From positions 1-47,057 of the IMG/VR virus record IMGVR_UViG_3300043496_000088: a stretch of DNA of 47,057 nt; one strand, written 5' to 3'. Below the pieces are notes generated by a model. That model ran no database searches. It saw nothing but the letters and a program-made list of their open reading frames with translations, and was not told where the DNA came from. Of this stretch, positions 16,281 through 47,057 are shown one piece after another; the first letter of the stretch is position 1; each line of letters opens with the position of its first letter. The translations under genes were made by a program, and so were the position numbers. Origin of the DNA: a virus.

Positions 16281-17330
16281 ATGGCTCTCCTAACCCCCGG
16301 TTCGTTCACCTACGCTGAATGGGCCCTCCGTCACGACAAGGATGGAAAAATCTCCACCCTCGTCAACATGCTGTCCCAGTGCAACAGCGTCATCGACGAC
16401 ATGCTCACCGTCGAGTGCCAGAGCGGCAACGCCTTCGAGTTCACCCAAGTCGTCAAGCTCCCCACCCCCAGCCGCCGCATCTACAACTCCGGCGTTGCGC
16501 GCAGCCAAGGCGGGGTCGCCAAGCTCGTGGCCACCTGCTCCCAGTACGCCGACTGGGCCACGATCGACAAGGACCTTGCGGAACTCGGCGGCAACCTCGC
16601 CCAACTCCGCGCGAACGAGGTCCAACTCCACATGCAGGGCTTGGGCCAACAACTGGCCTCGGACCTGTTCTACGCCAACCGCTCGACCGACCCCACGGCC
16701 TTCACGGGCTTCGCCAACATCTACAACACCGTGAACCCGGCGACGTCCCCCATCGCCAAGAACGTCCTCGACTGCCTGGGCACCGGCAACACCAACACCT
16801 CCCTGTGGCTCATCAACTGGGGGCCGACGGCCATCCATGCGATCTTCCCCAAGGGCACGCAAGCCGGCCTCGAACACCGGGACATGGGGATGCTCCCCAT
16901 CACCGATGGCGCCACCCCGGCCCAAGAGTTCCTGGCCTACCGGGACTGGCTCTCGTGGAAGATTGGCCTCGCCATCCACGACTGGCGGCAAGCCGTTCGC
17001 GCGTGCAACATCGACGTTGCGGCCCTCAACACGGGCGGTGCTGCCAACCTCATCACCATCCTGGCGAAGATGGTGCACCGCCTCCCGGTCCAGCCCTCCG
17101 GCGTCGGCCCGGTGAACACCTCGGACTCCACCCCCGACAAGATCGTCATGGGCCGCCCGGTGTTCTACGCCAACCGCTCCATCCTGGAGTACCTGGACAT
17201 CCAAGCCGCCAACAAGTCCAACGTGCTCCTCCAACAACGGGAATGGGACGGCATGACGGTGACGACCTACCGTGGCATCCCCATCCGCTGCGTGGACGCG
17301 CTGCTCGACACCGAGTCCCGTGTCGTCTAA
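16281..17330 (+). CDS. Major capsid protein
   Basis: 349 aa, HK97-fold by context. The sequence pattern ECQSGNAFEFTQVVKLP.., RRIYNSGVARSQGG, then ANRSTDPTAFTGFANI and GPTAIHAIFPKGTQAG is the one I associate with BPP-1/P22-unrelated podovirus capsids. The C-terminal part has WDGMTVTTYRGIPIRCVDALL, a typical late beta strand region. The codon choice is strongly GC-ending, as expected of the most expressed gene. Preceded by the scaffold gene and followed by the cement protein. Confidence 0.93.
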   Translation: MALLTPGSFTYAEWALRHDKDGKISTLVNMLSQCNSVIDDMLTVECQSGNAFEFTQVVKLPTPSRRIYNSGVARSQGGVAKLVATCSQYADWATIDKDLAELGGNLAQLRANEVQLHMQGLGQQLASDLFYANRSTDPTAFTGFANIYNTVNPATSPIAKNVLDCLGTGNTNTSLWLINWGPTAIHAIFPKGTQAGLEHRDMGMLPITDGATPAQEFLAYRDWLSWKIGLAIHDWRQAVRACNIDVAALNTGGAANLITILAKMVHRLPVQPSGVGPVNTSDSTPDKIVMGRPVFYANRSILEYLDIQAANKSNVLLQQREWDGMTVTTYRGIPIRCVDALLDTESRVV

Positions 17331-17367: not shown

Positions 17368-17835
17368 ATGATCGACCTGAACCTAGTCTTCGACGGAACC
17401 GTTTCCGCCGCCGGTGTGCCCTCCGGGGTCGCCGTCACCGTGGACCGCGTTTCCACCAACGTCATCGACATGCTGGCCAACCGGGATGTGGGGGCGGGAG
17501 ACGACCTCGAACTCCACGTCCTCGTGACCCAGAACTTCGCCACCACGGTCTCCATGCAGATCGCCTACCAAACCTCCGCTGACAACGTGACCTTCGTGGA
17601 CATCGTGCTGTCCCCGGTGATCCTCCTGGCCAACCTGATCGTCGGCGCCCCCATCTTCCGCTACAAGGTGCCGCCGTTCCAACTCAATGACACCGGCACC
17701 CCCAACCGCTACCACCGCCTGAGCTACGACATCTCCACGACGGCCACCGCCGGCGCGGTGTTCTCGTACATGACGGGTGGGGGCGACCGCCAAGTCTTCA
17801 ACGCCTACCCGGCGAACTACTCCGTCGCCTCGTAA
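17368..17835 (+). CDS. Bbp16-like capsid cement protein
   Basis: 155 aa. The strand-rich sequence with STNVIDMLANRDVGAGDDLELHV near residues 28-51 matches the pattern of BPP-1 cement protein Bbp16 (S.NVID.G..R..G.G), and RYHRLSYDIS near 110 matches its conserved RLNY-like strand. The jelly-roll proteins of this family sit as trimers or dimers on the outside of the capsid and stabilise it. Spacing of 37 nt after the capsid gene with its own ribosome-binding site. Confidence 0.85.
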   Translation: MIDLNLVFDGTVSAAGVPSGVAVTVDRVSTNVIDMLANRDVGAGDDLELHVLVTQNFATTVSMQIAYQTSADNVTFVDIVLSPVILLANLIVGAPIFRYKVPPFQLNDTGTPNRYHRLSYDISTTATAGAVFSYMTGGGDRQVFNAYPANYSVAS

Positions 17836-17865: not shown

Positions 17866-18237
17866 ATGGCTAAGTACGAAGTCAACACCAAGACCTTCAT
17901 CGCCCCCTTCCTCCTCGTAGAGGGCCAACGCATTACCGTGGCGGACGATTTCGTCCCCGGGCCGCACCTCACGCCCCTGGACGCCGCCGCTGAACGTGCG
18001 ATGGACAAATACTACGAGGCCAACCCCGGCGCTTCCCTGCACCCCATCATGGACCTGCCCAGTGCAGGCATCACGGTGGACAGTGTTCCCGAGGCTCGGG
18101 ACCGTGACCTCGATCTGAGCCTCGCCGAGGCGGTCCACTCCAAGCCGGAGGATGGGGAACGGCCCCCGCCGCCGAAGGGCACCAGCGGTGTGGCCTCTCC
18201 GGTCACGCCTCCCAAGCCCGCCGACGACAAGAAGTAA
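17866..18237 (+). CDS. Head-module protein, 123 aa
   Basis: N-terminal small domain (YEVNTKTFIAPFLLVEGQRITV) like the short beta domain of other phage head accessory proteins, then an acidic middle and a disordered Pro/Lys-rich tail (RPPPPKGTS, PPKPADDKK). GAAAGGAGAA lies upstream. It is the last gene before the terminator at 18246, so it closes the capsid transcription unit. Function unknown. Confidence 0.75.
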   Translation: MAKYEVNTKTFIAPFLLVEGQRITVADDFVPGPHLTPLDAAAERAMDKYYEANPGASLHPIMDLPSAGITVDSVPEARDRDLDLSLAEAVHSKPEDGERPPPPKGTSGVASPVTPPKPADDKK

Positions 18238-18245
18238 GCGTAAGG

Positions 18246-18271
18246 GGGAGGGGCTTCGGCTCCTCCCTTTT
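18246..18271 (+). terminator. Intrinsic terminator (TTCG loop) after head genes
   Basis: GGGAGGGGC (18246-18254), TTCG loop, GCTCCTCCC (18259-18267), then TTTT. Nine base pairs with one G-T. It separates the capsid genes from the secreted-protein cassette and could lower downstream expression. Confidence 0.9.
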
Positions 18272-18296
18272 CCTCATTCCTAAGGACCCTCCTCCA

Positions 18297-19607
18297 ATGA
18301 AGCGCATACTCGCATCCCTGGCGCTCCTCTTCGGCCTCGCCGTTGCGGGAAGCGCTTTCGCCCTGGACCCGAACCAGTGCGCCAACATTCCCAACGGCTT
18401 CGTGCGTGATGGGAACACCAACTGCGGGCGGATGATGACCGTCAACGCCGACGGTTCCATCAACACCACCGGCTCATTCTCCGGCTCCATCGCCCCGTTC
18501 ACTCCCACCTCCGCCACCTCCAACACCTCCCTGGCCGTCACCACCGCCAGCGCCAATGTCGCGCTCCCCGCAGGGACGACTGTGGTGGTACAGAACACCG
18601 GGGCCAACACGGCCTTTGTCACCTTCTCAGTTGGTGCGGGAACGGCTACTACCTCCGGGTACCCGGTCCTGCCTAACACCAACGCAGGCTTCGCGGTTGG
18701 TTCCAACACCTTCATCAACGCTATTACAGCAGCCTCCACCACCACCATCTTGGTCTCAGGGGGCACCGGCTTCCCGGCCATCGCGGGTGGTGGGTCTGGG
18801 GGCGGAGGGGGAGGCGGTGGAGCCGTCACGGTGGCGGATGGGGCAGATGTGACCCAGGGGGCCTTGGCCGATGCCGCCTGCGCCACAGACAACGGCACCT
18901 GTTCCATCAACGCGGTCATCAAGCGCAACAACCAACGCGCCACCTCAATCATCACGGCCCTTGGCTCGCCCTTCCAAGCAGGGGGCTCCATTGGCAACAC
19001 CTCCTTCGGTATCAGCGGCACCCTCCCGGCCTTCGCGGCACCTCCCGCTGTCACCTGTTCCCTGTGCTCCACCTCGGCCCTCCAGTCCGCCGTGGCCGTC
19101 ACCGCCGGGGCCGTGCAGGCTAACCGGATGGTGCCCTACACCCCCGCTGGCGCTGCCATCGACCTCTCGACCCCATCCTCCCTCATGGGCGTGGACGGCA
19201 CTAACATCGCCACCGCAGCCAACCCCGTCCCCAACTCCATCAACGCAACCACCTCAGGAGGCTGCACTCCCGGAGGCCTCATCTCCACAGCCTCCACGAA
19301 CTCCACAAACATCAAGGCCTCAGCGGGGAAACTCTGCGGGGGCACGGTCATTAACACCACAGCCACCGTGGCCTACGTTCGCTTCTACAACCTCGCCGCC
19401 GCCCCTACCTGTTCCTCCGCCACCGGGGCCATCGGCGTCGCCTACCCCATCCCGGCCTCAGCTTCCGGCGCGGGCACGGTGCTTGACGTGGGCCCTTGGG
19501 GCGTGGACTTCACCACAGGTATCGGCTTCTGCATCACCGGCGGCGGCTCCTCCACCGATAACACCTCCGCAGTCGCAGGTGTTTATCTCAACTACGCTTT
19601 CAAGTAG
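18297..19607 (+). CDS. Signal-peptide-bearing phage structural-like protein, 436 aa
   Basis: The first 22 residues form a classic Sec signal peptide: MKRI, a hydrophobic core (LASLALLFGLAVAG), and SAFA before LDP. The mature part is Thr/Ser/Asn-rich and beta-like, then a run of glycines (about residues 162-173), then VTVADGADVTQGALADAAC and a helix (INAVIKRNNQRATSI). That last pattern I associate with phage tail/virion proteins. The C-terminal part has paired cysteines and strand-rich repeats. So it combines an export signal with virion-like modules. It may be an exported surface protein, or a virion protein whose N-terminus only mimics a signal. Good ribosome-binding site (AAGGA). Confidence 0.8.
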   Translation: MKRILASLALLFGLAVAGSAFALDPNQCANIPNGFVRDGNTNCGRMMTVNADGSINTTGSFSGSIAPFTPTSATSNTSLAVTTASANVALPAGTTVVVQNTGANTAFVTFSVGAGTATTSGYPVLPNTNAGFAVGSNTFINAITAASTTTILVSGGTGFPAIAGGGSGGGGGGGGAVTVADGADVTQGALADAACATDNGTCSINAVIKRNNQRATSIITALGSPFQAGGSIGNTSFGISGTLPAFAAPPAVTCSLCSTSALQSAVAVTAGAVQANRMVPYTPAGAAIDLSTPSSLMGVDGTNIATAANPVPNSINATTSGGCTPGGLISTASTNSTNIKASAGKLCGGTVINTTATVAYVRFYNLAAAPTCSSATGAIGVAYPIPASASGAGTVLDVGPWGVDFTTGIGFCITGGGSSTDNTSAVAGVYLNYAFK

Positions 19608-19616
19608 GAGTTCCCC

Positions 19617-20369
19617 ATGAAGCGCCTGCTCCCCCTCCTTACTCTCGCGTGGGCGCTCCTAGGGGCTCCCGCCTTCGCGGCTCCGGTGTCCCTGGGCCTC
19701 CAACTCTTCGCGGCCAACACGGGGTCCTCCCAGTCCCTCACTACCACCGCCGCCTGCCCCGCCGGGAACTACATCTGGACCTTCTCAGTCTCTAACACCT
19801 CCACAGCGGTCTACTCCTTGGCCCCAGTGGACTCGGCTTCCAACACATACACTCTTCTTACCCTCACCAACATTGTCAACAACAACCGTTCGCGGCCCTC
19901 ATACAGCAAGCTCACCACCACCCTCCCTTCTGGCGGCACCATTACCTTTACCTATAATGATGCCACCGCCCGCCACTGGATTGGGGCGGTGTGTCTTGAC
20001 GGCCTTACGGCCTCTGCCCTCGACCTCAACGTCACGGGCACCACAGCCCAAAACGCCGCCCCAACCCTTACCACAGGCACCTTCACTCAACCCACCGAAG
20101 TCGTCCCCCTCTTCCTCTTCGTCAACGGGGCGGCCTCAGGAGGGGATACCGTGACCCTGGACCCCGCATGGACCCTTCTCCAGTCGGTCAACTCGACCGA
20201 CTTTATCATGATGGCCTACCGCACGGTGTCGGCTACAACCCCCATCACCTACACGGGCTCAATCGCCCCCAGCGCCCTACGCTCCTGGGGCATCGCCTAC
20301 ACCTCCTTCGTACTCGCAGCCGCAGGAGGCACGACTCCCCGGCTCCTAACCCTTGGTGTTGGCCAATGA
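19617..20369 (+). CDS. Secreted beta-sandwich-like protein, 250 aa
   Basis: Starts MKRLLPLLTLAWALLGAPAFAAP: a textbook Sec signal peptide with cleavage after AFA or FAA. The mature protein is almost all alternating polar/hydrophobic strands, Thr/Ser/Asn-rich, with two cysteines (ACPAG near 47, VCLDG near 125). This is typical of jelly-roll or concanavalin-like phage receptor-binding or decoration proteins. It follows the previous gene by 9 nt with AGGAG and overlaps the next gene by 4 nt (ATGA). Confidence 0.8.
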   Translation: MKRLLPLLTLAWALLGAPAFAAPVSLGLQLFAANTGSSQSLTTTAACPAGNYIWTFSVSNTSTAVYSLAPVDSASNTYTLLTLTNIVNNNRSRPSYSKLTTTLPSGGTITFTYNDATARHWIGAVCLDGLTASALDLNVTGTTAQNAAPTLTTGTFTQPTEVVPLFLFVNGAASGGDTVTLDPAWTLLQSVNSTDFIMMAYRTVSATTPITYTGSIAPSALRSWGIAYTSFVLAAAGGTTPRLLTLGVGQ

Positions 20370-22111
20370 AGCTCCTCGCCCTCGCTCTTCTGACCCTAAC
20401 GGCTCTCACCCCGGTTCCATCCCATGCCGGTCCCCTGGGCCTCAAGGGCCACGCGGCCACAGGGGGAGGCTCCATCCCGATTACCTTTGGGGACAAAACC
20501 CCATCCGGCTACGGCTGCGTGGACCTAACCGTCCTCCTGCCCACCTTCGGCACCATCACCATCACGGCACTAACCAACGGCCTCGGCAACCCCTCCACCG
20601 ACTTTACCATCACCTCCCCCAACCTCTTGTGCCCCTCTGGCACCTTCGCGGCGAAGAAGTTCTACACCGGCCCTTATGCTGGAACCCTCTCCGATGGCAC
20701 CCTGTCTCAAGACATCGCCATCCCCATTCTCCCCAACACCGCCTTCATCCGAGCGAAGGTGACGGATGCGAACAACTCATCGGAATTGGATGATTTGTTG
20801 AACTTTGGCGCAGCCGACAACAGGTCCCTCAAGCTGGGGGACACCGTGTACGGACGTGATGGTTGGTGGAACCCTAGCTCTGCGGGCTGGCGCATTCGGC
20901 CCCCGGCGGGAGGCTACGGCGCGGGCACCGGCTCAACCATCACCATCCGCTCTGAGACCGTGGATACTGCAATGGACTCCAACGGGAACCCCCGCCTCCA
21001 GCACGGGTTCAAAATTGGAGGCATTCAAATGGACGCGGCGGTGGTTGGTCCCGGCCCGATGCCCTTCACCTTCCGAGACATCTGGTTCTTCTCCAACGTC
21101 CCGGTTCCTACCCTTTCCTCCGCGGCCCTCCTAAGCGCCACCTCTACCGGCTATGGCATAAGCGCCTACAACTCCCGGTTCGAGATTGGACCTCTTAACA
21201 CTGGGGCCCCCAATCCTACCCGTGTGAACTACGTCGGGTTCCTCTCCGGTAACACGGCCAACGGCACCCCCAACCTCACGGTCGCCGATCACAACCATTT
21301 CATTGGCCTCGGGAAGTCCCTCTCAGGGAACCACGCTACCTTCACCTGGAATGTGATTGAAGACGGCTACGAGGACGCGATGGCGAACTCCGATGGCCCG
21401 AACTACATTGAGTACAACTTCGCCTTCAACTTCCATAAGGTTGCAGGCACTCACGCGGACGCCTCCCAGAACGGCGGCACCCTCTCCGCAGGCACGGACT
21501 ACGGGCGCAGCAACTACAACATCTTCGTCCGCAACGTGAGCACCGGCGATCCCAACGATCTCTCGGGCGGGGTGTTCAACGATGACACCAACAGCCCCAG
21601 CTATTTCGTCAACGCCGAGGTGAAGAACAACATCATGGCGTTCCTGGGCGCCAACATGGTGTTCATGCACACTTTCAACAATCCGATCATCCGCTTCAAC
21701 ACCCTCCTGGCTAACCAGCCCAACGCCAACTCAACGACGGGTAATATCCAGGTCCATAACGGCACGGACGCGGTGGTTGAGCGGAACATCACCAACGCGA
21801 CCCCCAGCACCGCGAGCCAATTTGGCACCGTCACCCTTCTCTTCAACACGGCTATTAGTGCCTCCAGCTTCCCGGCGTATCAAGCAGCCTTCCCGGCTCT
21901 CGTCAACCCGATGGTGGACATGAACAACCGGGCGCAGGCTTTGGCGAAGTTCACGCCTAACCCAACGGGTGTGAGCCTCAACGGCGATGGGAGCTTCTCA
22001 GGAGCCCTCTTCCCCGCCTGTCCCGGTCAAGCCAACGGTGCCTGGAACGACGGGACGGTGTGGAACTGCGCCAACCCGACGTGGCTCGCTGATCACCCTC
22101 CGGCTCAATAG
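20366..22111 (+). CDS. Secreted right-handed beta-helix protein, 581 aa
   Basis: The start ATG 20366 was chosen inside a longer frame because it overlaps the upstream stop as ATGA and opens a Sec signal peptide (MKLLALALLTLTALTPVPSHA). Residues about 280-520 show the short repeating coils of a parallel beta-helix (NHFIGLGKSLSGNHATFTWN.., NPIIRFNTLLANQ.., DAVVERNITNATPS), as in pectate lyases and tailspikes. The C-terminus has two cysteines around a Trp-rich end. It may degrade or bind a host surface polysaccharide. No catalytic residues can be assigned. Confidence 0.8.
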   Translation: MKLLALALLTLTALTPVPSHAGPLGLKGHAATGGGSIPITFGDKTPSGYGCVDLTVLLPTFGTITITALTNGLGNPSTDFTITSPNLLCPSGTFAAKKFYTGPYAGTLSDGTLSQDIAIPILPNTAFIRAKVTDANNSSELDDLLNFGAADNRSLKLGDTVYGRDGWWNPSSAGWRIRPPAGGYGAGTGSTITIRSETVDTAMDSNGNPRLQHGFKIGGIQMDAAVVGPGPMPFTFRDIWFFSNVPVPTLSSAALLSATSTGYGISAYNSRFEIGPLNTGAPNPTRVNYVGFLSGNTANGTPNLTVADHNHFIGLGKSLSGNHATFTWNVIEDGYEDAMANSDGPNYIEYNFAFNFHKVAGTHADASQNGGTLSAGTDYGRSNYNIFVRNVSTGDPNDLSGGVFNDDTNSPSYFVNAEVKNNIMAFLGANMVFMHTFNNPIIRFNTLLANQPNANSTTGNIQVHNGTDAVVERNITNATPSTASQFGTVTLLFNTAISASSFPAYQAAFPALVNPMVDMNNRAQALAKFTPNPTGVSLNGDGSFSGALFPACPGQANGAWNDGTVWNCANPTWLADHPPAQ

Positions 22112-22123: not shown

Positions 22124-22885
22124 ATGACCTCTCCCATCGAAATCTCCAACCGGGCCCTGAGTGAACTCGGAGGACGGGCCACAGTGGCCTCCTTCTCCGA
22201 GGGCTCCAAGGAGGCCCGCGCTTGCGCCCTGTGGTACGACCCTCTGCGGAAGCAACTCCTCCGCGCGGCTCCCTGGGGCTTCGCAAGGAAACAGTTCGTA
22301 CTCTCCGAACTCGGCAACGCGCAGGACAACACCTCCCCCTACCCGTGGGGGTTCAAGTACACCTACCCCTCCGACGCCCTGAGGGTCCGGTACATCCTCC
22401 CACCCGGCCCGAACTTCAACCCCGCCACCGCCATTCCGGGAACCCAAGTCGCCTTCTGCGGCCTCGGGCCCTCCCGCTCCAACCGCTTCATCATCGCGCA
22501 GGACATCGAGCCCTCCCTCCTCAACTCCCGCAAGGTGCTCCTGGCCAACCTCCAGTACGCCCACGCGGTCTACGTGGCGGATGAGACGAACACGGAGATG
22601 TTCGAGGACGACTTCGCGCAGGCCCTGGTGAGCGCCATGGCGGCCAAGATGTGCATGGCCATCACGGGGAATGTGAACATGAGGGCCGGGTTCATTGAGT
22701 CGGCGCAGATGGCTATTACCAACGCGCGGGTCACGGACGGGAATGAGGCCATCCCCACCCTCGACCACACCCCCGACTGGATGGCGGCGCGGAATGACGG
22801 CTGGGGCCCGGTGTCCACCTTCTCGGCCCCGATGGGCGTTGGGGACTGGAACGTGGGTTGGTCCGACATGAACTGGGGGATGTGA
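22124..22885 (+). CDS. Head-tail adaptor (T7 gp11-like tail tube protein A)
   Basis: 253 aa. The opening pattern PIEISNRALSELGGRATVAS, SEGSKEARACALWYDPLRKQLLR and APWGFARK is the adaptor signature (N.AL..LG..R......G..EA......Y...R...L....W.FA). It links the portal to the nozzle. Stop followed at once by the next gene (ATGTGAGTTG). Confidence 0.9.
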   Translation: MTSPIEISNRALSELGGRATVASFSEGSKEARACALWYDPLRKQLLRAAPWGFARKQFVLSELGNAQDNTSPYPWGFKYTYPSDALRVRYILPPGPNFNPATAIPGTQVAFCGLGPSRSNRFIIAQDIEPSLLNSRKVLLANLQYAHAVYVADETNTEMFEDDFAQALVSAMAAKMCMAITGNVNMRAGFIESAQMAITNARVTDGNEAIPTLDHTPDWMAARNDGWGPVSTFSAPMGVGDWNVGWSDMNWGM

Positions 22886-22886: not shown

Positions 22887-25451
22887 TTGGCCCAATCTGT
22901 AATCCAACCGTCCTTCTCCGCCGGGGAACTTTCCCTCAACCTCTTCGCCCGCGTGGACCTCGACAAATACCACGTCGGGGCCGCCTTGATGCGGAACTTC
23001 TTCGTGGACTATCGCGGGGGCGCGAGCACCCGCCCAGGCACGGAGCTTGTGGATCGCACCAAGAACCCTAATGTCCCCGGGAGGCTGGTCCCCTTCATCT
23101 TCTCCCAGGAGCAGTCCTACGTCCTCGAACTCGGGGACTTCTACATGCGCTTCATCGCCAACGGAAGCCAACTCCTCCGCCCCGCCACCAACATCACCTC
23201 CATCGTCTTCGCGCCCATAGGCCAGTTCGACTCCGCGGCCCACGGCCTCACGACCGGCCAGACCGTGTACATCACGGGCATCGGGGGGATGGACTACCTC
23301 AACAACCGCTCCTACATCGTGTTCGTCATCAACCCCGGGCGGTTCAGCCTCACCACTCTGGACGGGGTGCCGGTCAACACGGTGGCGGGCGGGTACACCG
23401 GCGGGGGCACCGTGGCGGCGGTGTACGAGATCGCCACCCCCTGGAGCTACATCGACCTGCCGAAGCTCAAGTTCGTGCAGTCCGCCGATGTGATGACCTT
23501 CACGCATCACCTTTACCCCATCCAGAACCTCTCGCGCACAACGCCCTCCACCTTCACCCTAACCCCCGAGGTCATCGGCTCGACGGTCCCGGCTCCCACC
23601 GGCCTCACGGTGGTCCCTACAACCCCCGGTCCCCTCACCTACGGCTACCTAGTCTGCGCCGTCTCGGCCTCCGGGGAGCGCAGCCTTCCCTCCGCTGGGG
23701 CCTCAGCCGACTCCGACCCGTTGGACCAAAACACCGGGGTTGTGGAACAACTTTCCTGGGACCCGATGCCCGCTGCGGACCACTTCGACATCTTCAAGGC
23801 CGGCCCGGTGCCAACCGGCTCCCCCTTCCCAACCTACTACGGCTACATCGGCTCATCCGCCACCAACACCTTCGTGGACAACAACATCGGGCCGGACTAC
23901 AACAACTCGCCCCCGACCTTCAAGAACCCCTTCGCGGGGGGCCAGAACCCAGGCTGCGTCACCTACTACCAACAGCGGAAGGTATACGCCAACCTCCCCA
24001 TCAACCCGCAGGAGATGGACTTCTCCCGGGTGGGGCAGTATTCCAACTTCGACACCTCCTTCGGGGTCCTCGACTCCGACGCCATCCAAATCTCCATCGC
24101 CTCCCGGCAGGTGAATGAGATTGTGTCGATGGTGTCCACCGCCTCAGGCCTCGTGGTCCTCACCTCCGGCGGGGCCTTCCAAGTCTCGGGCGGGGCCCCC
24201 ACAGCCGCCGTCACCCCCTCAAACATCGTGGCCCTGCCTCAGGCCTCCAGCGGCACCAACGACCTGCCCCCCATCGTGGTGAACTACGACATCCTGTTCG
24301 TGCAGAACAAGGGAGCCATCGTCCGCGACCTCGCGTACAACTTCTACCTCCAAACCTTCTACGGCTTCGACCGCAGCGCGCTGTCCAACCACCTCTTCTT
24401 CGGCCACCAACTGAAGGAGTGGGCGTGGGCCGAGGAGCCGTTCAAGATCATCTGGGCCACGAGGGATGACGGGAAGCTCCTCTCCCTCACCTACGTCCCC
24501 GAGCAGGAGGTGTATGGCTGGGCCCAGCACGACACCCAAGGGGTCTTCGAGTCCGTGTGCAGCGTGCCTGAGGGCATGGAGGACGCGGTGTACTTCATCG
24601 TCCAACGCTTCGACTCCCAGGGGCGTCAAATCCGCTACATCGAGCGCATGGCCTCCCGCCACTTCATCCGCGTTGAGGACGCTTGGTGTGTGGACTGCGG
24701 CGTGGGTACGCCCCTAAACCGCCCCCACTTCGGGTTCTTCATGAACCAAACCTCTTCGGGGTTTGTGAAGCTGGGAGCGGATACCGGCACCCCCTTCCAC
24801 TCCGGGTGGCTGGGGGTCATCATCTGGTTGGATGTGGGAGGGAAGCTGAAGGTCACTTCTATCCTCTCCTCCACCGAGGTCGAGTGTGAGGTCCTAGAGC
24901 CCGTGGGGAACCAAATCCCGGGGACCGAATCCCCCCGCTACTTCCAAATCCAGGGCCTCACCTGGGGCTACGCGGGAGAGCAGGAGACCTTTGCGGGCCT
25001 TTGGCACCTCGCGGGGCTGGAGGTGAGTGTGCTGGCCGATGGCATGAGCGTGGGGCCCATCAGGGTCACGGACGACGGGCAGATCAGGCTCCCCTACCCG
25101 GCCTCCAAGGTGTGGGCGGGCCTTCCCTTCCAAGCCCAGCTTCAGACCCTCTACCTCGACGTGGGGGAGCCGACCATCCAGGGCAAGAGGAAGAAGGTGT
25201 CGGCTGCGACCGTGAGGGTGGACCAATCCCGCGCGATCCTCATGGGCGAAACCTTCGACGACCTGTCCCCCTTCAAGCCCGACCTCACCGACTACTCCAT
25301 CCCCGAACCGCTGTACTCCGGCGACCAACGCATCATCATCGACGGGAGTTGGAGCGAGACCGGCCAAGTCGCCATCCAAGTCGATGACCCCCTCCCCGCC
25401 ACCATCCTTGGCATCATTCCAGAGGTGACACTTGGCGACACTGGCAGCTAG
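22887..25451 (+). CDS. Tail nozzle (T7 gp12-like tubular protein B)
   Basis: 854 aa. The N-terminus PSFSAGELSLNLFARVDLDKY and FFVDYRGGASTRPGTELV is the conserved start of podovirus nozzle proteins (F..GE.SP.L..R.D..KY...+..N..+...GG...RPG). A hexameric tail tip is expected. The central fibronectin-like segment PTGLTVVPTTPGPLTYGYLV (about 231-250) may be an Ig/Fn3-type domain. The start codon is TTG at 22887. The 3' end overlaps the next gene by 20 nt. Confidence 0.92.
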   Translation: MAQSVIQPSFSAGELSLNLFARVDLDKYHVGAALMRNFFVDYRGGASTRPGTELVDRTKNPNVPGRLVPFIFSQEQSYVLELGDFYMRFIANGSQLLRPATNITSIVFAPIGQFDSAAHGLTTGQTVYITGIGGMDYLNNRSYIVFVINPGRFSLTTLDGVPVNTVAGGYTGGGTVAAVYEIATPWSYIDLPKLKFVQSADVMTFTHHLYPIQNLSRTTPSTFTLTPEVIGSTVPAPTGLTVVPTTPGPLTYGYLVCAVSASGERSLPSAGASADSDPLDQNTGVVEQLSWDPMPAADHFDIFKAGPVPTGSPFPTYYGYIGSSATNTFVDNNIGPDYNNSPPTFKNPFAGGQNPGCVTYYQQRKVYANLPINPQEMDFSRVGQYSNFDTSFGVLDSDAIQISIASRQVNEIVSMVSTASGLVVLTSGGAFQVSGGAPTAAVTPSNIVALPQASSGTNDLPPIVVNYDILFVQNKGAIVRDLAYNFYLQTFYGFDRSALSNHLFFGHQLKEWAWAEEPFKIIWATRDDGKLLSLTYVPEQEVYGWAQHDTQGVFESVCSVPEGMEDAVYFIVQRFDSQGRQIRYIERMASRHFIRVEDAWCVDCGVGTPLNRPHFGFFMNQTSSGFVKLGADTGTPFHSGWLGVIIWLDVGGKLKVTSILSSTEVECEVLEPVGNQIPGTESPRYFQIQGLTWGYAGEQETFAGLWHLAGLEVSVLADGMSVGPIRVTDDGQIRLPYPASKVWAGLPFQAQLQTLYLDVGEPTIQGKRKKVSAATVRVDQSRAILMGETFDDLSPFKPDLTDYSIPEPLYSGDQRIIIDGSWSETGQVAIQVDDPLPATILGIIPEVTLGDTGS

Positions 25452-26438: not shown

Positions 26439-28571
26439 ATGGCGAGCGTTCCAGAGCCCTCGGGCCAGCGCGTCCTCCCTGATGGGGGCCAACAGCCGTA
26501 TCAGAACATTCGGGCCAACCCGGATGCCTTCGGCGCGCCGATTGCTAGGGGCCTCGGGGCTGTGGCCCAAGAGGCGGATCAAGCCTCCAACGTCCTGGCG
26601 CAGCACGCCGAGGTCCTAGCGGGCCTCGACAACAAGGCCAAGTCCGACGAGGCCGCCATCAACGCGACCCAAGCGGCGAATGAAATCTTCACCAAGTACA
26701 CCCTGGATGAGCGGGGGGCTAAGGCGCTCCCGGCCTTCCCCTCCTACGTCGAGGACATCAAGAAGGCCCGGGAGGAAGGTCGAGGCACCCTCACCTCCCC
26801 GATGGCCAAGCAGATGTACGACGTGCAGACCCGACAGGTGGTGGCCAACCTCACGGGCTCCATGTCCCGCTTCGCCGCCGGGGAACAGCGCAAGTACATC
26901 GAGCAAACCTCCATCTCCCTGGAGGCCAACGCCGCCGACCTCATGACCCTGCACCCCGGGGACGCGGGGCTTGAGCAAGCCTACCTTGAGACCTCGGCCC
27001 GGGAGACCAAGTTCCGGGCCCTCAACGCCGGGCTGGACACGCCCGAGGACAACACCAACACCGAGCGGATGCTGAAGGACAGCCGGGGGAAGGTGTACGC
27101 GACGGTGGCCATCAACATCGCTGTCACGGACCCCGCCGGGGCGCAGGACTACCTTGAAGCCCGCAAGGACCTCATGGACCCTCAGGCCTACGCGGCGGCC
27201 CAGATGAAGCTCAAGCCCGCTGTCATGGCCAACGACGCGGCCAACGACGCGCAGGCTGCGGTGGGTGAGGTGTTGGGCGGCGGGACTGGGGGGCCCTCAG
27301 GCTTCGCCAAGTTCGACACCCCTGAGGCTGGGATGAAGGCGGCGGACACCAACCTCCAGTCCTACGGGAAGAAGGGCATCGACTCCATCTCGGAGGTCAT
27401 CAGCCGCTGGGCCCCGCCCTCCGAGAACAACACCGCCGCCTACATCGCCACGGTGGCGAAGGCAACGGGGATTGGGGCGAATGACAAGATCGACCTGGGG
27501 AACCCTGCGGTGCGTTCCAAGCTCCTCGCGGCGATGGCGGTTGTGGAGAAGGGGAAGAATAACAACCCCCTGAACCTGAGGCCTTTGGCGAATGGGAGTT
27601 GGGAGGGCCAGAGCGTGGACAGCGCCTCAGGGGGCGCGCCGACCTCCTCCCAACTCATGGCCAACATGGAGGGGGCCATTGCCAAGGCGGGTGCGAGGGC
27701 TGAGGCCCGCTACCCCGGCAACGCGGTCTACCGCAACCAAGTTGAGGCCCAAGCCATGAGCTTCCTCAACCGCCGGATCACCGCCGCCAAGGACATCGAG
27801 GGCTCTGCGGCCATCAGCCTCCTGAACGTCATCGACGCTGGGGACATTCAGGACATGCAGGGGCTCCTCTCCACCGGGGCCGAGACTATCCAGCAGTACA
27901 ACGCCCTGCCCCCTACGGGTCGCGCCGCGGTTGACAGCGCCCTGCGGCGCAACGCCAACGAACTCACCCTTGAGCGCCAGCAGACCCTCACGACCTACAA
28001 CGGGCTGTGGGCGAACAGGAACAACGACCCCCAAGCCTACCTCAACGCGGACATCAATTCCATGGACCTGAGGGCGAAGGATCGCATCACCGCCCTCAAG
28101 CAACAGCAGGAGTTCAGGGCCAAGCCTCAGGCGATGGTGGACAAGCCGTTTAACTCCATCATCCACTCCCCGGAGTTCGCCTCCGTCCTAGGCACCCTCG
28201 GCATCAAGCGGAGTGAGGGCTCCCTTCAGACGGCGGATTACTCCCACCTACTCGGAGCCGTGGCCGCCGAGCTTGACAACTGGCGGGCCAAGAACCCTCA
28301 GGCCGTCCCCGACACCAAGGCGCAGGCCTCCATCATCGCGCGGGCCACGGCGGCGCAGGGCACCTACAGGGAGACCTTCCTTGGCATCCCGGTCTCAGGG
28401 CCGAAGCCTATTACCGAGGAGAACTACACCGAGGTTCAGGGAGCCTCCCGCGCGTTTGACGTGAGTGAGGAGGACCGCAAGGGGGCCATTGGGTATCTCC
28501 AATCCCAGGGCCTCCCGGTCGATGAAATGTCCATCGCCAAGGTGGTGCACGATGCAAGGGGGACGAAGTAA
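26439..28571 (+). CDS. Internal virion protein, T7 gp15-like, with lytic-domain remnant
   Basis: 710 aa. Mostly helical. Residues about 285-345 contain FAKFDTPEAGMKAADTNLQ, YGKKGIDSISEVISRWAPPS and NNTAAYIATV, a widespread phage virion module. About 40 residues later comes KGKNNNPLNLRPL..GSWEGQ, which resembles the NNPGNIR start of that same module. In the proteins I know, NNPGNIR comes before the FDTPEAG part, so the order appears permuted here. The protein likely forms the periplasmic tube of the ejectosome with the next protein. The start overlaps nothing; the stop forms TAATG with the next gene. Confidence 0.8.
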   Translation: MASVPEPSGQRVLPDGGQQPYQNIRANPDAFGAPIARGLGAVAQEADQASNVLAQHAEVLAGLDNKAKSDEAAINATQAANEIFTKYTLDERGAKALPAFPSYVEDIKKAREEGRGTLTSPMAKQMYDVQTRQVVANLTGSMSRFAAGEQRKYIEQTSISLEANAADLMTLHPGDAGLEQAYLETSARETKFRALNAGLDTPEDNTNTERMLKDSRGKVYATVAINIAVTDPAGAQDYLEARKDLMDPQAYAAAQMKLKPAVMANDAANDAQAAVGEVLGGGTGGPSGFAKFDTPEAGMKAADTNLQSYGKKGIDSISEVISRWAPPSENNTAAYIATVAKATGIGANDKIDLGNPAVRSKLLAAMAVVEKGKNNNPLNLRPLANGSWEGQSVDSASGGAPTSSQLMANMEGAIAKAGARAEARYPGNAVYRNQVEAQAMSFLNRRITAAKDIEGSAAISLLNVIDAGDIQDMQGLLSTGAETIQQYNALPPTGRAAVDSALRRNANELTLERQQTLTTYNGLWANRNNDPQAYLNADINSMDLRAKDRITALKQQQEFRAKPQAMVDKPFNSIIHSPEFASVLGTLGIKRSEGSLQTADYSHLLGAVAAELDNWRAKNPQAVPDTKAQASIIARATAAQGTYRETFLGIPVSGPKPITEENYTEVQGASRAFDVSEEDRKGAIGYLQSQGLPVDEMSIAKVVHDARGTK

Positions 28572-31500
28572 TGGCCGACCCGATTGACTGGGGCGGTTAC
28601 GCCCAACGCAAGGCGCAGGAGAAGGCGGCGATCAATCAGGCGCAGGGGGACGCCGTGAGCCCCCAAGCCGCCATTGATGCCATCCGCATCGCGCCTGAGG
28701 CTCAAGTCCCCCCCGACGTGGGGATGCAGGACCCTGAGCCCCTGGTGGCCCAAGCGCGCCAACGCCAGAACACCTCCCACCTTGAGGCCTCTCCGCCCCT
28801 CACGTCCTTCGTGGCAAGCTCCCCCGCCAAGGCCGCTGCGGTCTCCGACGACTACGGCTCCCTGGCCAAGATCGGCTCCAAGCTCAACGAGTGGAACGCC
28901 ACGGCTACCGAGGACTTCTTTGCCCCCGGGAAAGCCTCGGGCCGCGCCCTCCTCCGTGACGCCCATGACTGGTTCACCTCGGGGCCGGAAAAGTCCCCTC
29001 TCGCCCTGATCCCCGGGTTCAGCGAGAAGGACAAGAAGCTGGGGGGCGTGCTGGCCGACCTGTTCGGGGTGGCGGTGTCGCCAATTACAGGGGCCCTGAA
29101 CGCCGCCGCGCGACCCCTCAGCGCCATTCCCTCCTCCAAGTTGGTGGATGGCAAGTTCGTCCCCCTCACCCAGCCTGAGCGGCAAGCCCAAGCCGCCAAC
29201 ATTCTAGGCACCGCTCTTGCGGGCCTAGGGGCCGGGGGGCTGTTCCGCGCACCCCCCATCCGCCCAGGGCCAGTGAACGAAGGTCTCGTGGGCCAACGGC
29301 TTCGTCTCACTGGCCCGAAGGAGGAGGTCCCGAACGCGGTGTTCGAGGACTTCAAGGCCCCCGGCGTTGAGCCCGCGCATACTCCAGTCTACGGAGCCGT
29401 GGCCGAGATGGACGCGGCCCAGGTGACGCGGTTGCAGGAGGCGGTGGCGGAGAGCCAGACGCACACCAGGGCCCCCGCCCTCATGGAGGACTACCTCGAA
29501 AACCACACGGACGCCGGGGGCCAAGTCGTGGCGGTCCCTGCGGACACGGTTGCCAAGCTGTGGGCCGATGGCCACAACGTCTTCGCGGACCAACAGACCG
29601 CCATTCAGGATGCCCTCATCTCGGGCTCCGACCTCCAAATCCCCCTGTCCACCTACCTCACTGAGACCGCCGGGAAGCCCTTTGCCGAGGACCTTAATGC
29701 GGCGGTGAGGTTTAGGGAGAATGGGGTGAGCATTGAGGAGGTGAAGGACCTCCCGACTGAAACCCCCGGCTACGACGTGTACCACGGCTCCGCTGAACCC
29801 ATTGATGAGTTCGACATCTCCCAAACGCGGGAGGAGGGCGGCTGGTTCTTTAAGGACCGTGCGGCTCTGGAGGACAGCCAGTACGGGCGCAACGGGAGGG
29901 TGGTCTCCACCCACCGCATCAACCCCCAAAAGGTCTACACCCCCACGATGTTCGAGCAGGCGACGGCGGTTGCCGGTGGGGGGTATGATGACTACGGTGT
30001 GGGGGCCCTGCTTAAGAAGGGGGACCAGTTCACGGGGGGTGTGGGCGCGCGCAACGCCATTGCCCGCAAGGCGAAGGAGGCCGGGTACGACGCCATTGAC
30101 TGGTCGGATGCCGGGCACATCACCGTGCTGGATAACAAGGCGTTCGTCCGTAAGCCTAAGGCGAGGGCGGTTGAACTCCCCGAGGATGTGGGGCCGGAGT
30201 TCGCGGAGGGTGTGAGGACTATCGCGGCCAAGGCGGACAGTGTGGTCGAGCAAGTCTTCAAAGAGGCCGCCCTCGACAAACTCTTCCTCAACCCCAAAGC
30301 CGCCGGGATGACCGAGGGCCAGATGTCCCGGTACTCCGCCCGCGTTGAGGAGGCCCAAGCCGCCCTACACGACCGCCTCCTCCAGCGCACCTACAATCAA
30401 ATCCGCCGGGAGCGCACCCCCGAGTGGAAGGAGCAGGTGGTCCAGCGGTTCGCGGAGGCCGAACAGACGGTGGCCGCCGACCCGGCCCTACAGGCCTACA
30501 GCGCCTTACGGAGCGGCAAGGGCACCTTGGGGGAGCCGATCGAGGCTCCCTTCAAGCTCTCCTCTGAGGACCAGATCGCCCTACACGGCAAGGACCAGGG
30601 GCTCCCCTCCTCCATGTTCTCCCGCAACGGCCTGATGGCCGACGATGTGGCGGAACTCCTGGGCTTCCCCAACGGCCTCAAACTCATGGAGTCCTTGGTG
30701 GAGACCCACGCCGCCGTTGGGGACCGCACGGTGAGGGAGTTCGTGAAGGATGAGACGCAGGCTCTTGCGGAGCAGGCGAACAGGGAAACCTTGGGGTACG
30801 ACATCTCGCCCGAGGGGATGCTTGAGGCGGCGAGGGAACTCGTGGCCAGCCCTGAGATTGAGGACGTGTTGATCGACACCCTCAAGGACTTTGCCGCTGA
30901 GCGGGGCCTGCCGTTTGACGCGGCGGCTGTGAAGGACCTTGCGAAGTCTCAGTTTGACAAGCTCCCGGTGAAGGAGGCCATCCGCACGCGAGCCTTCGTG
31001 GACAACATGCGACGCCTCGGGAACAAAGCCGAGGTGGCTCTGATGGACGACAAGGACCTCAAGGCCTTCCAGTTCAAGCAACAGCAACTTCTCCAGTACC
31101 ACCAAGTCGCGATGTCCACCTTCCTCGCCAAGAAGTACGGCATCGCCACGAGGAAGTTCGCCAAACTCGCCCGGCGCAAAACCATCCAGGGGATGGCTCA
31201 ACCCTACCTCGACCAACTCCACTCCTACCTCCCGCGCGTTGGGTTCCCCTCCAAGCGCAACGTCCTCGAACTCGGTGAGGCCCTTGGGGGCGTGACGGTT
31301 GAGGACTTCGTGAGCGCGGTGATCTCCGTCAACTCCGCTTTCCCGGAGGTCCCGCGTACCGAGGGCAACCTCCCCGACCTTCAGGTCCAAGAGTTTTGGG
31401 CCGTGAGAGAGTTCGTGTACGCCATGGACAAGTTCGGTCGGGAGGTGCAGACCCTCAAGACCGTGGATGGGAGGGCGGACTTTGAAGCCACCGTTGAACG

Positions 31501-33682
31501 GTTCCTTGCTAACGCCCCTCCAGCAAAGGGCGGTGGTCCTCCGCGTATGGGAGGCCACAAGAACTTCTACGAGCGGCAGGCCGCCAAGCTCAGGGGCTAC
31601 GACGCCTCCCATCGCAAGATTGCCGACATCGGGGAGTTCTTCGACCGGGGCAAAGCTGATGGCGTCATGGCGCAGGTGCTGGAGTACCCTATTGAGGAGG
31701 CGTCCAACAAGGACGGGAAGCTGAGGAGGGAGACCTATCAGCCGGTGAACGATGCGTTCTATACGATCCCGGAGGCAACGAGGAACACCTACAACGGCAT
31801 CATCCCGGCTGAGGACCACCCGTTCACCGCGCCCGATGGCACGCCGATGGAGCTTCGCAGGGGGGACGTGCCCGCCATCGCCCTGTACGTGGGGCAGGAG
31901 AGCGCGTTGGCGAAACTCGCCGAGGGCTACAACACCACGCCGATGGATGTCCTCCAGTTCCTCGACGAACACATGACGGCCCCTGAGGTCCAGTTCGTGC
32001 AGAAGGTGTGGGACCAGTTTGAGGAACTGAGCGCGGAGGTGAGCGCCGAACTCCGCGCGATGACCGGCACTGGGCTCCAGAAGGAGGCCAACCGCCCCTG
32101 GGTCACACCACACGGGACCGTCAAGGGAGGCTACTGGCCGGTGAGGTACGACAAGGCCCTCGACTCCAGCGCGCTGGACAGGGAGGCTGCACGCGCGGCC
32201 CAAGTCGGCCTCGACCCGGTGAACCAGTTCTTCGCCAACGTGGTCCCCAACAAGGGGTTCAGCGTCCAACGCACGGGCTACAAGGGCCCCGTGCTCATCC
32301 GCCTGAGTGAAGTCGCAGGAGCTTTCGATGCCCACATCAAGTACGCCTCCTACGCGCAAACGGTTGCTTCTATCCGGCGCTTCATCAACGACAAGCGGGT
32401 GCGGGCAACCATCTCCAACCGGATGGGTCCCGAGTATTACGAACAGTTCAACCCCTGGCTGGACGCGATTGTGTTGGACTATACTATCTCCGACAAGGGC
32501 TCCACGGCACTTCAGGCCATAGCCCACCAACTTAGGATCAACACCACCATGTCGGTGTTGGGGTTCTCCTACACTACAGGCATCTCCCAGATTGCGGGCC
32601 TCAGTGGGTCCATGGGAGTCCTCGGGGACAACCTCCTCGACGGCACCCTCCGCATGGCCCACGGGATGGCGAAGTTTGGCCGCATCATGGCCTCGGGTGG
32701 GATGCGCCGGGAGATTTTCGCCAAGTCCGAGTTCATGGCCCAGCGGTTCGGGGAGGTCGAGCCCAACATGGTGGCGGCGATTAATGCCACGCAGGGGCTG
32801 AGCTTCACGGGGGGCAAGGCGGCGCAGGCCTACAAGAAGGTGCAGAACGCGGGGTTGGCCTACATTGGGTGGGCTGAGTTCCTTACGGTGAGTGGCCCAA
32901 CCTGGGTTGCGGCCCGCGAGAAGGCCCTTGGCCAACTCAACATGTCCGAGGGCGACGCCACCCGCTACGCGGATCGTGTTGTCCGTAAGGCGCAGGGCTC
33001 TGGCCGCCGCGTTGACCTCGCAGCCGTCCAGCGCGGTGAGGGCTTCCAGCGTTGGTTCTACATGTTCAACACGTTCTTCAACGCGCAGTACCAACGGATG
33101 ATTGAGACGGGGAGGGAGGCGGGCCAAGGCAACTACGGCAAGGCCTTCGCCCTATTCGCCGGGTTCTTCATCCTTCCCCCGCTCCTGGCCAATCTACTCA
33201 CCAACCACGGGCCGAAGGATGGGAAGGCGGGGACGGTGAGCCGTTGGGCCGCGCAGAGCATCTTCTTCAACCTCTTCCGCCCGATGTACGGGCTAGGCAA
33301 CCTCACCTCCGTCGTGGACCGCAACCTCACCGCGCAGAACGGCAAGTGGACCATGAGGCCCGCGAGGGACTTTGACTTCAGCGCCGACCCGATGAGCCGG
33401 ATGGCTCAGGCAATTGTCAAGGGCGCGGAGAGTTCGGTCAAGTTGGCCCAGGGTAAGAAGGGGGGCCGGCCTGTGCAGAACATCGTCGCAGGCATCGGCA
33501 TCCCCCTCGGCATCCCGGGGTCCGTGCAGATCGGGCGCACCGGGGAGTACATGTACGAACTCACCACCGGGCAGCAGAAGCCTAAGGGCGCAGCCGACAC
33601 CATCAAGGGCCTGCTTGTCGGCCCACAACAATCCCAGGGCAAGACCTCCACCTCAACCCCCCATGGCGGGAGCCACAAATGA
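28571..33682 (+). CDS. Giant ejection protein, T7 gp16-like, with ART-like segment
   Basis: 1703 aa, the longest gene. Residues about 400-530 resemble the ADP-ribosyltransferase of polyvalent phage proteins: YDVYHGSAEPIDEFDIS, GGWFFKDRAALEDS and AKEAGYDAIDWSDAGHITVLDNKAFV. In active members the last strand usually carries a catalytic Glu (..EYVVFDP); here His occupies that place, so activity is doubtful. Residues about 1025-1195 look like a large-polyvalent-protein domain (TYNGIIPAEDHPF; GGYWPVRYDK). A hydrophobic segment (FALFAGFFILPPLLANLL) lies near 1525-1545, as in membrane-spanning ejection proteins. It is delivered into the host with the DNA. No transglycosylase motif like that of T7 gp16 is obvious. 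Confidence 0.85.
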   Translation: MADPIDWGGYAQRKAQEKAAINQAQGDAVSPQAAIDAIRIAPEAQVPPDVGMQDPEPLVAQARQRQNTSHLEASPPLTSFVASSPAKAAAVSDDYGSLAKIGSKLNEWNATATEDFFAPGKASGRALLRDAHDWFTSGPEKSPLALIPGFSEKDKKLGGVLADLFGVAVSPITGALNAAARPLSAIPSSKLVDGKFVPLTQPERQAQAANILGTALAGLGAGGLFRAPPIRPGPVNEGLVGQRLRLTGPKEEVPNAVFEDFKAPGVEPAHTPVYGAVAEMDAAQVTRLQEAVAESQTHTRAPALMEDYLENHTDAGGQVVAVPADTVAKLWADGHNVFADQQTAIQDALISGSDLQIPLSTYLTETAGKPFAEDLNAAVRFRENGVSIEEVKDLPTETPGYDVYHGSAEPIDEFDISQTREEGGWFFKDRAALEDSQYGRNGRVVSTHRINPQKVYTPTMFEQATAVAGGGYDDYGVGALLKKGDQFTGGVGARNAIARKAKEAGYDAIDWSDAGHITVLDNKAFVRKPKARAVELPEDVGPEFAEGVRTIAAKADSVVEQVFKEAALDKLFLNPKAAGMTEGQMSRYSARVEEAQAALHDRLLQRTYNQIRRERTPEWKEQVVQRFAEAEQTVAADPALQAYSALRSGKGTLGEPIEAPFKLSSEDQIALHGKDQGLPSSMFSRNGLMADDVAELLGFPNGLKLMESLVETHAAVGDRTVREFVKDETQALAEQANRETLGYDISPEGMLEAARELVASPEIEDVLIDTLKDFAAERGLPFDAAAVKDLAKSQFDKLPVKEAIRTRAFVDNMRRLGNKAEVALMDDKDLKAFQFKQQQLLQYHQVAMSTFLAKKYGIATRKFAKLARRKTIQGMAQPYLDQLHSYLPRVGFPSKRNVLELGEALGGVTVEDFVSAVISVNSAFPEVPRTEGNLPDLQVQEFWAVREFVYAMDKFGREVQTLKTVDGRADFEATVERFLANAPPAKGGGPPRMGGHKNFYERQAAKLRGYDASHRKIADIGEFFDRGKADGVMAQVLEYPIEEASNKDGKLRRETYQPVNDAFYTIPEATRNTYNGIIPAEDHPFTAPDGTPMELRRGDVPAIALYVGQESALAKLAEGYNTTPMDVLQFLDEHMTAPEVQFVQKVWDQFEELSAEVSAELRAMTGTGLQKEANRPWVTPHGTVKGGYWPVRYDKALDSSALDREAARAAQVGLDPVNQFFANVVPNKGFSVQRTGYKGPVLIRLSEVAGAFDAHIKYASYAQTVASIRRFINDKRVRATISNRMGPEYYEQFNPWLDAIVLDYTISDKGSTALQAIAHQLRINTTMSVLGFSYTTGISQIAGLSGSMGVLGDNLLDGTLRMAHGMAKFGRIMASGGMRREIFAKSEFMAQRFGEVEPNMVAAINATQGLSFTGGKAAQAYKKVQNAGLAYIGWAEFLTVSGPTWVAAREKALGQLNMSEGDATRYADRVVRKAQGSGRRVDLAAVQRGEGFQRWFYMFNTFFNAQYQRMIETGREAGQGNYGKAFALFAGFFILPPLLANLLTNHGPKDGKAGTVSRWAAQSIFFNLFRPMYGLGNLTSVVDRNLTAQNGKWTMRPARDFDFSADPMSRMAQAIVKGAESSVKLAQGKKGGRPVQNIVAGIGIPLGIPGSVQIGRTGEYMYELTTGQQKPKGAADTIKGLLVGPQQSQGKTSTSTPHGGSHK

Positions 33683-37940: not shown

Positions 37941-39232
37941 CACATCACTCCTAGGTCTTTGGAACCCTTGGGGGGTTGGGGAACGTACTCGGCATCCGCG
38001 CCCTCGGTGCCGATGCAGCGGCGGAAGAGGTCTGCGGCGACGGCAATGTCGATCATCCGCATGACGGCGTGGGAGGCGACGCGGGAGGAGAGCCATTTGA
38101 CCAACACGGAGACATGCACCGGCTTGCGGCCGGAACTCATGTAGGCTTGGTGCATGATGTGGCGCATCTCCTCATAGATATGGCCGTCCTCGTGGGTCTG
38201 CATGTCCTTGAAGATTTCGGGCATGTCGAGTTCGGCGGCGAGGAGCCATTCCTTGGCGGTTTGAATGTCCGAGGTGTCGACTTCCATCCTCTCATCCTGA
38301 AGGGCCGAGATCATGCAGAGCTTGGCGAGGTGGGCCCAACGGCGGGTGTGGTAGTGCGTGAGGCGGTTGTGCAGGGGGGCCTCCCTGTCCGCGTGCAGGC
38401 GGAACTCGTACATCTGGGCTTGGGCCTCGGGGGTCCAGATCATCGGGCCCTTGAGGGACTTCAGGGCCTTGAAGCGGTCCACCAGTTCGGCGCGGAGGAC
38501 TTCGTTCGGGTCGGCCTTGCGGAACATGTCCTTGGGGATGACCTTTTGGTCGGAGTACACCATGATGACCCGGGCCATGAAGCCGGAGCCCCAGAGGGCG
38601 TCGGAGATGGTGTTGCCGAGGTTCTGGGTGGCGGTGCCCACGAGCATGGAGATGCCAGGGAAGGGGATGGACTTGCCCTTGTCATGCCCGCGCTTGTGTT
38701 CGTCGTTGACATCACCGCAGTCGTAGAGGTCGGTGAGGAGGCCCGCGAGGGCGGCGTCGTACTGGGACATGAAGTTGGACAACTCCCCGATCCTGAGGGC
38801 CAGGAAGTGGTAGTCCATCGGGATGGCGATGGGGTTCTCGGGCGTGGGGTCGAAGAGGACGGCCTTGCCGGAATTGGCCATTACGTCCAGTAGGCCCTGC
38901 TTGGTCACGTCGTTGGGGGCCAGCGTCACCGCCCCCGACTTGCGGAGGATGGAGCCGCCGGGTGACATGGCGACGGACTTCCCGGTGCCGGGGGGTCCTA
39001 CGAGGAAGACGAACAGGTTGGGGTGCAGGCGCATTTCCCCGAAGTCCGTCCATACCCGGCGCTCCAGGGCCGCCCCTACATCATGGATCGCGGTCCATTG
39101 GCGGAAGACCCGGGGGGCCGGGTGTTCTTTAGTATACTCTAGGCATAGGTCCACCAAGCCAGTCGGCGGGGGAGCTTGCGGCGTTTTGTTTTCTTCGGCG
39201 GTTGTCTTCACCGCCCCACTTACGGAGTCCAT
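37940..39232 (-). CDS. DUF3987-like primase/helicase ATPase
   Basis: 430 aa. Walker A VGPPGTGKS (78-86); downstream ISMLVGTATQNLGN and SGFMARVIMVYSD match the conserved strands of the DUF3987 ATPases that occur with phage polymerases (NTP-dependent primase-helicase partner). Residues about 330-430 are helical, with DMQTHEDGHIYEEMRHI. It likely loads onto or unwinds DNA at replication forks. It begins inside the polymerase gene: the frames overlap by 104 nt. Confidence 0.8.
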   Translation of the reverse strand: MDSVSGAVKTTAEENKTPQAPPPTGLVDLCLEYTKEHPAPRVFRQWTAIHDVGAALERRVWTDFGEMRLHPNLFVFLVGPPGTGKSVAMSPGGSILRKSGAVTLAPNDVTKQGLLDVMANSGKAVLFDPTPENPIAIPMDYHFLALRIGELSNFMSQYDAALAGLLTDLYDCGDVNDEHKRGHDKGKSIPFPGISMLVGTATQNLGNTISDALWGSGFMARVIMVYSDQKVIPKDMFRKADPNEVLRAELVDRFKALKSLKGPMIWTPEAQAQMYEFRLHADREAPLHNRLTHYHTRRWAHLAKLCMISALQDERMEVDTSDIQTAKEWLLAAELDMPEIFKDMQTHEDGHIYEEMRHIMHQAYMSSGRKPVHVSVLVKWLSSRVASHAVMRMIDIAVAADLFRRCIGTEGADAEYVPQPPKGSKDLGVM

Positions 39233-40970: not shown

Positions 40971-41095
40971 GCGGCTTGGAGGGTGGAGAAGGGGCCGATG
41001 AGGAGAACCAGGTCTCTACCCTCCCAAGGGGCTACAGCGTAGAAGCCTGTGGAGTGGAAGCAGCCGGGAGGGAAGTAGATGAAACGGCGCTTCAC
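40946..41095 (-). CDS. Small protein, 49 aa, GTG start
   Basis: MKRRFIYFPPGCFHSTGFYA, then a charged turn WEGRDLVLLIGPF and LQAAWEATQPW. GTG at 41095 overlaps the upstream TAG (TAGTG), the usual coupled arrangement here. It lies between the two parts of the split polymerase. Unrecognised. Confidence 0.65.
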   Translation of the reverse strand: MKRRFIYFPPGCFHSTGFYAVAPWEGRDLVLLIGPFSTLQAAWEATQPW

Positions 41096-46951: not shown

Positions 46952-47057
46952 TGCGGAACTTCGCGAGGGTTTCGATGATGGCGTTGACGGACTTCTTGCC
47001 GAGGCCGGGGATGGTGTAGAGTTGGGCCACGGTCATGCAGTCGAGGGTGTAGAGGGT
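46931..47057. repeat. 127-bp terminal duplication of bases 1-127
   Basis: Bases 46931-47057 are identical to 1-127. A length of 127 is the standard k-mer overlap of circular contigs from short-read assemblers, so the genome is circularly permuted or circular and 46,930 bp long. A true terminal repeat is less likely because the point lies inside an operon. Confidence 0.9.

Follow-up and report, generated by a model that had tools for sequence, protein, structure and literature searches.

A position-conserved locus of predicted Sec-exported, fibre-like proteins between the head and tail genes of a BPP-1/epsilon15-type podovirus

The window, that is, the whole 47,057-nucleotide stretch of DNA analysed here, has identical ends over 127 bp (positions 1-127 and 46931-47057), which makes the record appear complete, as a circularly permuted (or circular) genome. 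Gene calling by ORF tiling on both strands gave 64 tiled ORFs of at least 50 amino acids. A GP7-family capsid protein, a Bbp16 cement protein, a Head-tail_con connector and the phrog_394 and phrog_376 tail proteins were found in order, placing this soil-type bacterial virus among the BPP-1/epsilon15-type podoviruses; in Bordetella phage BPP-1, Salmonella phage epsilon15 and BcepC6B the GP7 capsid, Bbp16 cement, connector, adaptor and nozzle genes stand in the same order. Three adjacent, tightly spaced genes at 18297-22111, here called P1, P2 and P3, follow the small post-cement gene and precede the tail adaptor, and thus lie between head and tail genes as an earlier note on this DNA had it. 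The features of the region are as follows.

16281-17330, + strand: major capsid protein of the BPP-1/epsilon15 type, left flank (Pfam GP7, 1e-91; PHROG major head protein)
17368-17835, + strand: cement protein of the Bbp16 family, left flank (Pfam Bbp16, 2e-13)
17866-18237, + strand: small post-cement protein, last gene before the module (weak phrog_590 match, PHROG 0.0057; syntenic homologs in L014 and L059)
18245-18276, + strand: hairpin of the intrinsic-terminator type (18245-18268) with a U-run, ahead of the module (10-bp stem, UUCG loop, -19.3 kcal/mol, z = -2.9)
18297-19607, + strand: P1, 436 aa, predicted exported fibre-like modular protein with 10 Cys in the mature part (homologs in L014, L017, L098 and L145)
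18297-18362, + strand: predicted P1 signal peptide, 22 aa (rule score 4.82; reads MKRILASLALLFGLAVAGSAFA^L)
18363-18476, + strand: conserved N-terminal part of P1 past the cleavage site (CxN..RDGxTNC..VNxDGSINTTG), shared with P1 of G002
18477-18821, + strand: middle domain of P1 with a Gly-rich linker (homolog in L138, phmmer 1.3e-5)
19266-19604, + strand: predicted C-terminal beta-sandwich domain of P1 with a Cys pair (model pLDDT 67-83 over the domain)
19617-20369, + strand: P2, 250 aa, predicted exported, with 2 Cys (its C-terminal TP..LTLGVGQ recurs in an exported Gly-rich protein of L017)
19617-19679, + strand: predicted P2 signal peptide, 21 aa (rule score 4.33; reads MKRLLPLLTLAWALLGAPAFA^A)
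20366-22111, + strand: P3, 581 aa, predicted exported, with 4 Cys and an HxDxxQ motif (35-37% identical to a homolog in the corresponding position of G001)
20366-20428, + strand: predicted P3 signal peptide, 21 aa (rule score 4.26; reads MKLLALALLTLTALTPVPSHA^G)
22124-22885, + strand: tail adaptor, right flank (phrog_394, 2.5e-44)
22887-25451, + strand: tail nozzle, right flank (phrog_376, 1.6e-180)
33679-36345, + strand: separate, non-exported tail spike or fibre without a signal peptide, with an N-terminal tail-protein domain and a pectin-lyase-like part (phrog_1640, 2e-15; phrog_32881, 1e-13)

Among the 64 tiled ORFs, the signal-peptide rule was passed by P1, P2 and P3 only, and the probability that three such genes would be adjacent by chance is 0.0015. 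The test was our own rule-based scorer and not SignalP, with a cut-off of 3.9 in the statistics; it missed PhoA among seven positive controls. By this rule P1-P3 have the sequence hallmarks of Sec substrates of SPase I, namely a positive n-region, a hydrophobic core and an AxA-like cleavage site, whereas the capsid and cement proteins on the left and the adaptor and nozzle proteins on the right fail it. Rule-based prediction thus bears out the earlier observation of three consecutive Sec signal peptides with none in the flanking head and tail proteins, and the terminator that had been placed between the capsid genes and the module is real. A similar hairpin precedes the module at the same place in the related phage G002 as well (-18.1). 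P2 has an AGGAG site upstream, and P3 starts at 20366 (the longest-ORF start at 20168 is not the true start), where its start codon overlaps the P2 stop by 4 nt (ATGA); from this site and this overlap, P1-P3 look co-translated.

The phage-virion-like modules ascribed earlier to P1 are supported. Its N-terminal 60 residues are common to G002, with the middle and end of the protein diverging. The homolog of its middle domain in L138 is a stand-alone, non-exported protein of 101 aa at the same locus. The C-terminal domain, shared with L017, has significant Foldseek neighbours that all come from the viral library, the named ones being phage proteins; matches of this model in the PDB were not significant, and neither were those of the P1 profile. 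Homologs of this domain with 33-43% identity occur in the Caulobacter phages KSC (gp046) and S2B (gp004), but these proteins, unlike P1, are non-exported, lack the Cys pair and are encoded near terminase or lysis genes. The Cys pair (PTC...FCITG) is found in four of four exported members (window, L017, L098 and L145) and in neither of the two non-exported ones.

The folds proposed for the other two proteins, a beta-sandwich in P2 and a pectate-lyase-like beta-helix in P3, were not confirmed: P1-P3 have no match in Pfam and no significant match in PHROG, no homolog of P3 was found in the PDB, where its profile gave no significant match either, and the structure model of P3, built from two sequences, reached a pLDDT of 32. 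The likeness of P2 to the L017 protein is limited to the LGVGQ-type C-terminal end. HxDxxQ is present in all three third-position proteins, namely P3 (20366-22111), the protein at 6381-8912 of L014 and the third gene product of G001 (L059/L013), where it is possibly an active-site or metal motif. The third gene of G002 was considered as a P3 homolog and rejected, as profile comparison detects none; HxDxxQ is all that the two have in common, and they are otherwise unalignable.

The same locus was compared among relatives. G002 (IMGVR 3300049830_000163; capsid 64% identical to that of the window) and G001 (3300025924_000010; nozzle 60% identical) are complete or near-complete phages, and each carries exactly three signal-peptide genes in the interval from the head genes to the tail adaptor. 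In G002 the third product begins MLKHLFPFILGFCLVTDCADA^Q and fails the strict rule. G001, which has the same 127-bp end overlap as the window, has its module split by the contig ends, and its second gene scores 3.7, under the 3.9 cut-off. Module contents differ among the window, G001 and G002. In dozens of environmental relatives (L016, L017, L048, L072, L096, L129, L146 and others) one to six signal-peptide genes occupy the locus, while L022 and L138 have non-exported proteins there. Relatives lacking the cassette, with which a comparison had been proposed, do exist: no signal-peptide module stands at the locus in the environmental L018, L021, L126, L130 and L140 or, outside this group, in the annotated records of the BPP-1-type phages BcepC6B and Shamal, and in the last two, unlike in the window, the adaptor directly follows the small post-cement gene. 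The idea of an inserted cassette needs correction: judged from these comparisons, the module is a position-conserved, content-variable locus of a lineage and not a stray or chance insertion.

Isolate phages offered few counterparts. Among those searched, neither P2 and P3 nor exported relatives from other loci had a match, P1 was matched in its C-terminal domain alone by the two Caulobacter phages, and module genes were not found in any isolate whose virion proteome is known. Near the cement gene, signal-peptide proteins of about 140 aa with four Cys were also observed (L016 1376-1795, L096 2787-3230, L129 1149-1598 and others; 18 matches).

Exported proteins of Gram-negative bacteria favour an even number of cysteines (PMC7678975). 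By this criterion the cysteine counts of P1-P3 after signal-peptide removal are all even (10, 2 and 4, respectively). In the discovery set (the first 14 loci), the mature part had an even count in 20 of 20 Cys-bearing signal-peptide ORFs, as compared with 63 of 122 non-signal ORFs. The rule was then held fixed for two further sets: in Set A (77 loci, nozzle profile) 36/40 clusters were even against 143/301 controls, and in Set B (55 loci, fibre motif) 50/58 against 68/123. Taken together, 86 of 98 clusters, formed at 50% identity and not fully independent, were even, against about 50% in non-signal ORFs (combined Fisher p = 5e-13). Furthermore, where the signal peptide itself holds an odd number of cysteines, 28 of 30 Cys-bearing proteins are even in the mature part (the cleavage site of one, L148, is doubtful), a pattern difficult to account for without removal of the peptide. 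The parity statistics and the gene position led us to reject chance or miscalling as the source of the signal peptides, and the predicted export, cleavage and oxidative folding of the module proteins are statistically well supported.

A similar association was seen in the fibre motif GDN[ST]xxxA[ST]TAFV. Its Cys form lies in signal-peptide proteins in 17 of 22 cases by the rule, with three more visibly so, and its non-Cys form in 4 of 85; the Cys-positive TTAFV loci were mostly picked for the cysteine, which makes this a case-control comparison. The string NACASTAFV, usually as CPTRPxGD[NS][ST]NACASTAFV directly past the signal peptide, occurs in 56 viral contigs (L147-L202) whose proteins have very different C-terminal parts, and by motif and predicted signal peptide these proteins form a large exported, fibre-like family. 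For one of its members isolate phage records gave no match, and the motif was not found in 385 genomes of one class.

Other exported proteins of the set point to fibres or spikes as well: that of L016 has a PHROG tail-spike match, that of L048 a pectate-lyase-type domain (Pect-lyase) and that of L017 a weak Gly_rich_2 match. Among pairs of proteins, mostly of one motif-selected family, that have their first 70 mature residues in common, 892 of 939 match over less than 30% of the rest. Such a conserved N-terminus with a variable remainder, seen also between P1 of the window and P1 of G002, is, as far as alignments can tell, the pattern of virion-anchored receptor-binding proteins. Tail spikes and fibres with TTAFV, LRADGTW or pectate-lyase modules share this architecture and module vocabulary with the exported family, which differs from them by the signal peptide and the paired cysteines (e.g. 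SNACASTAFV versus STKIATTAFV). In Cobetia phage Carin1 the corresponding cement-connector interval encodes gp39 and gp40, the latter being a structurally validated head spike base, but, unlike the module proteins, these are without a signal peptide. The P1 middle domain was considered as a head-spike base, for which no support was obtained: no relation was detectable to Carin1 gp40, to the RcGTA head spike base or to entries of the PDB.

The reading that we favour, at a probability of roughly 0.45, is that P1-P3 are fibre or spike proteins that would leave the cytoplasm by Sec, acquire disulfides on folding in the periplasm and join virions at lysis. The late, translationally coupled module would make three fibre- or spike-type proteins, whose Sec signal peptides would direct them out of the cytoplasm and then be cut off. 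The mature proteins would pair their cysteines in an oxidising compartment (periplasm, DsbA-type) and, thus folded and stabilised, would presumably wait there until lysis, when they would bind the finished virions released from the cytoplasm and form accessory fibres or spikes beside the ordinary tail spike made in the cytoplasm. Docking would fall to the conserved N-terminus past the cleavage site, and binding or degradation of polysaccharide to the variable remainder. We infer attachment at lysis from the type of modules, the position of the genes and the conserved N-termini, and it also counts in favour that the same locus holds the head spike base in Carin1 and non-exported proteins in L022 and L138; on the other side, binding after lysis must work at dilution. 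Since the non-exported spike at 33679-36345 is already present, the module is not required as the sole receptor binder.

The exported, oxidatively folded proteins may instead act off the virion, being freed at lysis or leaking earlier, and degrade or bind polysaccharide, clear capsule or matrix, or serve as soluble decoys. The HxDxxQ shared by the P3-like proteins of all three three-gene modules, the pectate-lyase-type domain in L048 and the signal peptide itself, natural on a secreted protein, agree with such a role; however, a cytoplasmic enzyme would be freed by lysis anyway, the modules look more like structural fibre parts than complete enzymes and the fold model of P3 is poor, so that this explanation is possible but doubtful. 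A role in blocking the receptor from inside, by periplasmic or surface proteins directed against superinfection or against re-adsorption of progeny to the dying cell and its debris, is unlikely. Fibre-like modules could bind the same receptor, and the classical signal-peptide-bearing proteins of phages are exclusion proteins (Llp of T5, Cor of phi80 and N15), but those known are single, small and early or lysogenic, whereas here up to six modular proteins, some of them large, are encoded in a late virion operon behind the capsid genes.

Still less probable are ordinary cargo genes (morons) taken from a host and exported for host fitness, unrelated to virion biology. The slightly lower GC3 of P1-P3 (0.76-0.80, against 0.81-0.91 in other late genes) and the variation of content among relatives would fit them, but the position is conserved, there is homology to phage fibre modules, and a search for host homologs, made with one motif in the 385 genomes of one class, gave none. 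Hydrophobic N-termini left uncleaved, as virion anchors or as segments inserted into a membrane during infection, would suit genes of a virion operon and were the outcome that the earlier note set against export; they are disfavoured by the cysteine parity, which fits the mature part and not the precursor, and by the canonical n-h-c regions with AxA-like sites, and we regard them as very improbable.

Host Sec or membrane targeting with a periplasmic destination is familiar from pIII of filamentous phages, from Llp, Cor and SieA, and from SAR endolysins and spanins, but to our knowledge no known Sec-exported phage protein belongs to a set of modular fibres or spikes encoded among the late head-tail genes of a tailed phage; the open literature searched gave no description of an exported fibre or spike module. 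Tailed phages are understood to assemble in the cytoplasm. A conserved late-operon module of exported, disulfide-patterned, fibre-like proteins would imply either a second assembly compartment or phage effectors acting at the cell surface before lysis. Some tailed phages may have virion parts made outside the cytoplasm, as the many relatives with exported genes at the same place suggest. The broader proposal, that a widespread set of soil tailed phages adds Sec-exported, periplasm-folded fibres or spikes at lysis, so that each virion would draw on two assembly compartments, cytoplasm and periplasm, is put forward tentatively, at somewhat less than even odds. A signal peptide combined with an even mature Cys count could mark such proteins in the genomes of phages that have not been cultivated, and spikes stabilised by disulfides would make attractive tools.

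Two further observations were made elsewhere in the window. The product of 28571-33682 is an ejection-type protein of 1703 aa that matches LPD22 and, weakly, ART-PolyVal (ADP-ribosyltransferase of polyvalent proteins), which suggests an enzyme injected along with the DNA. On the - strand, at 39132-42651, the DNA polymerase match is divided between two ORFs (39132-40970 and 41575-42651) that are separated by others, perhaps owing to an intron, an intein or an insertion.
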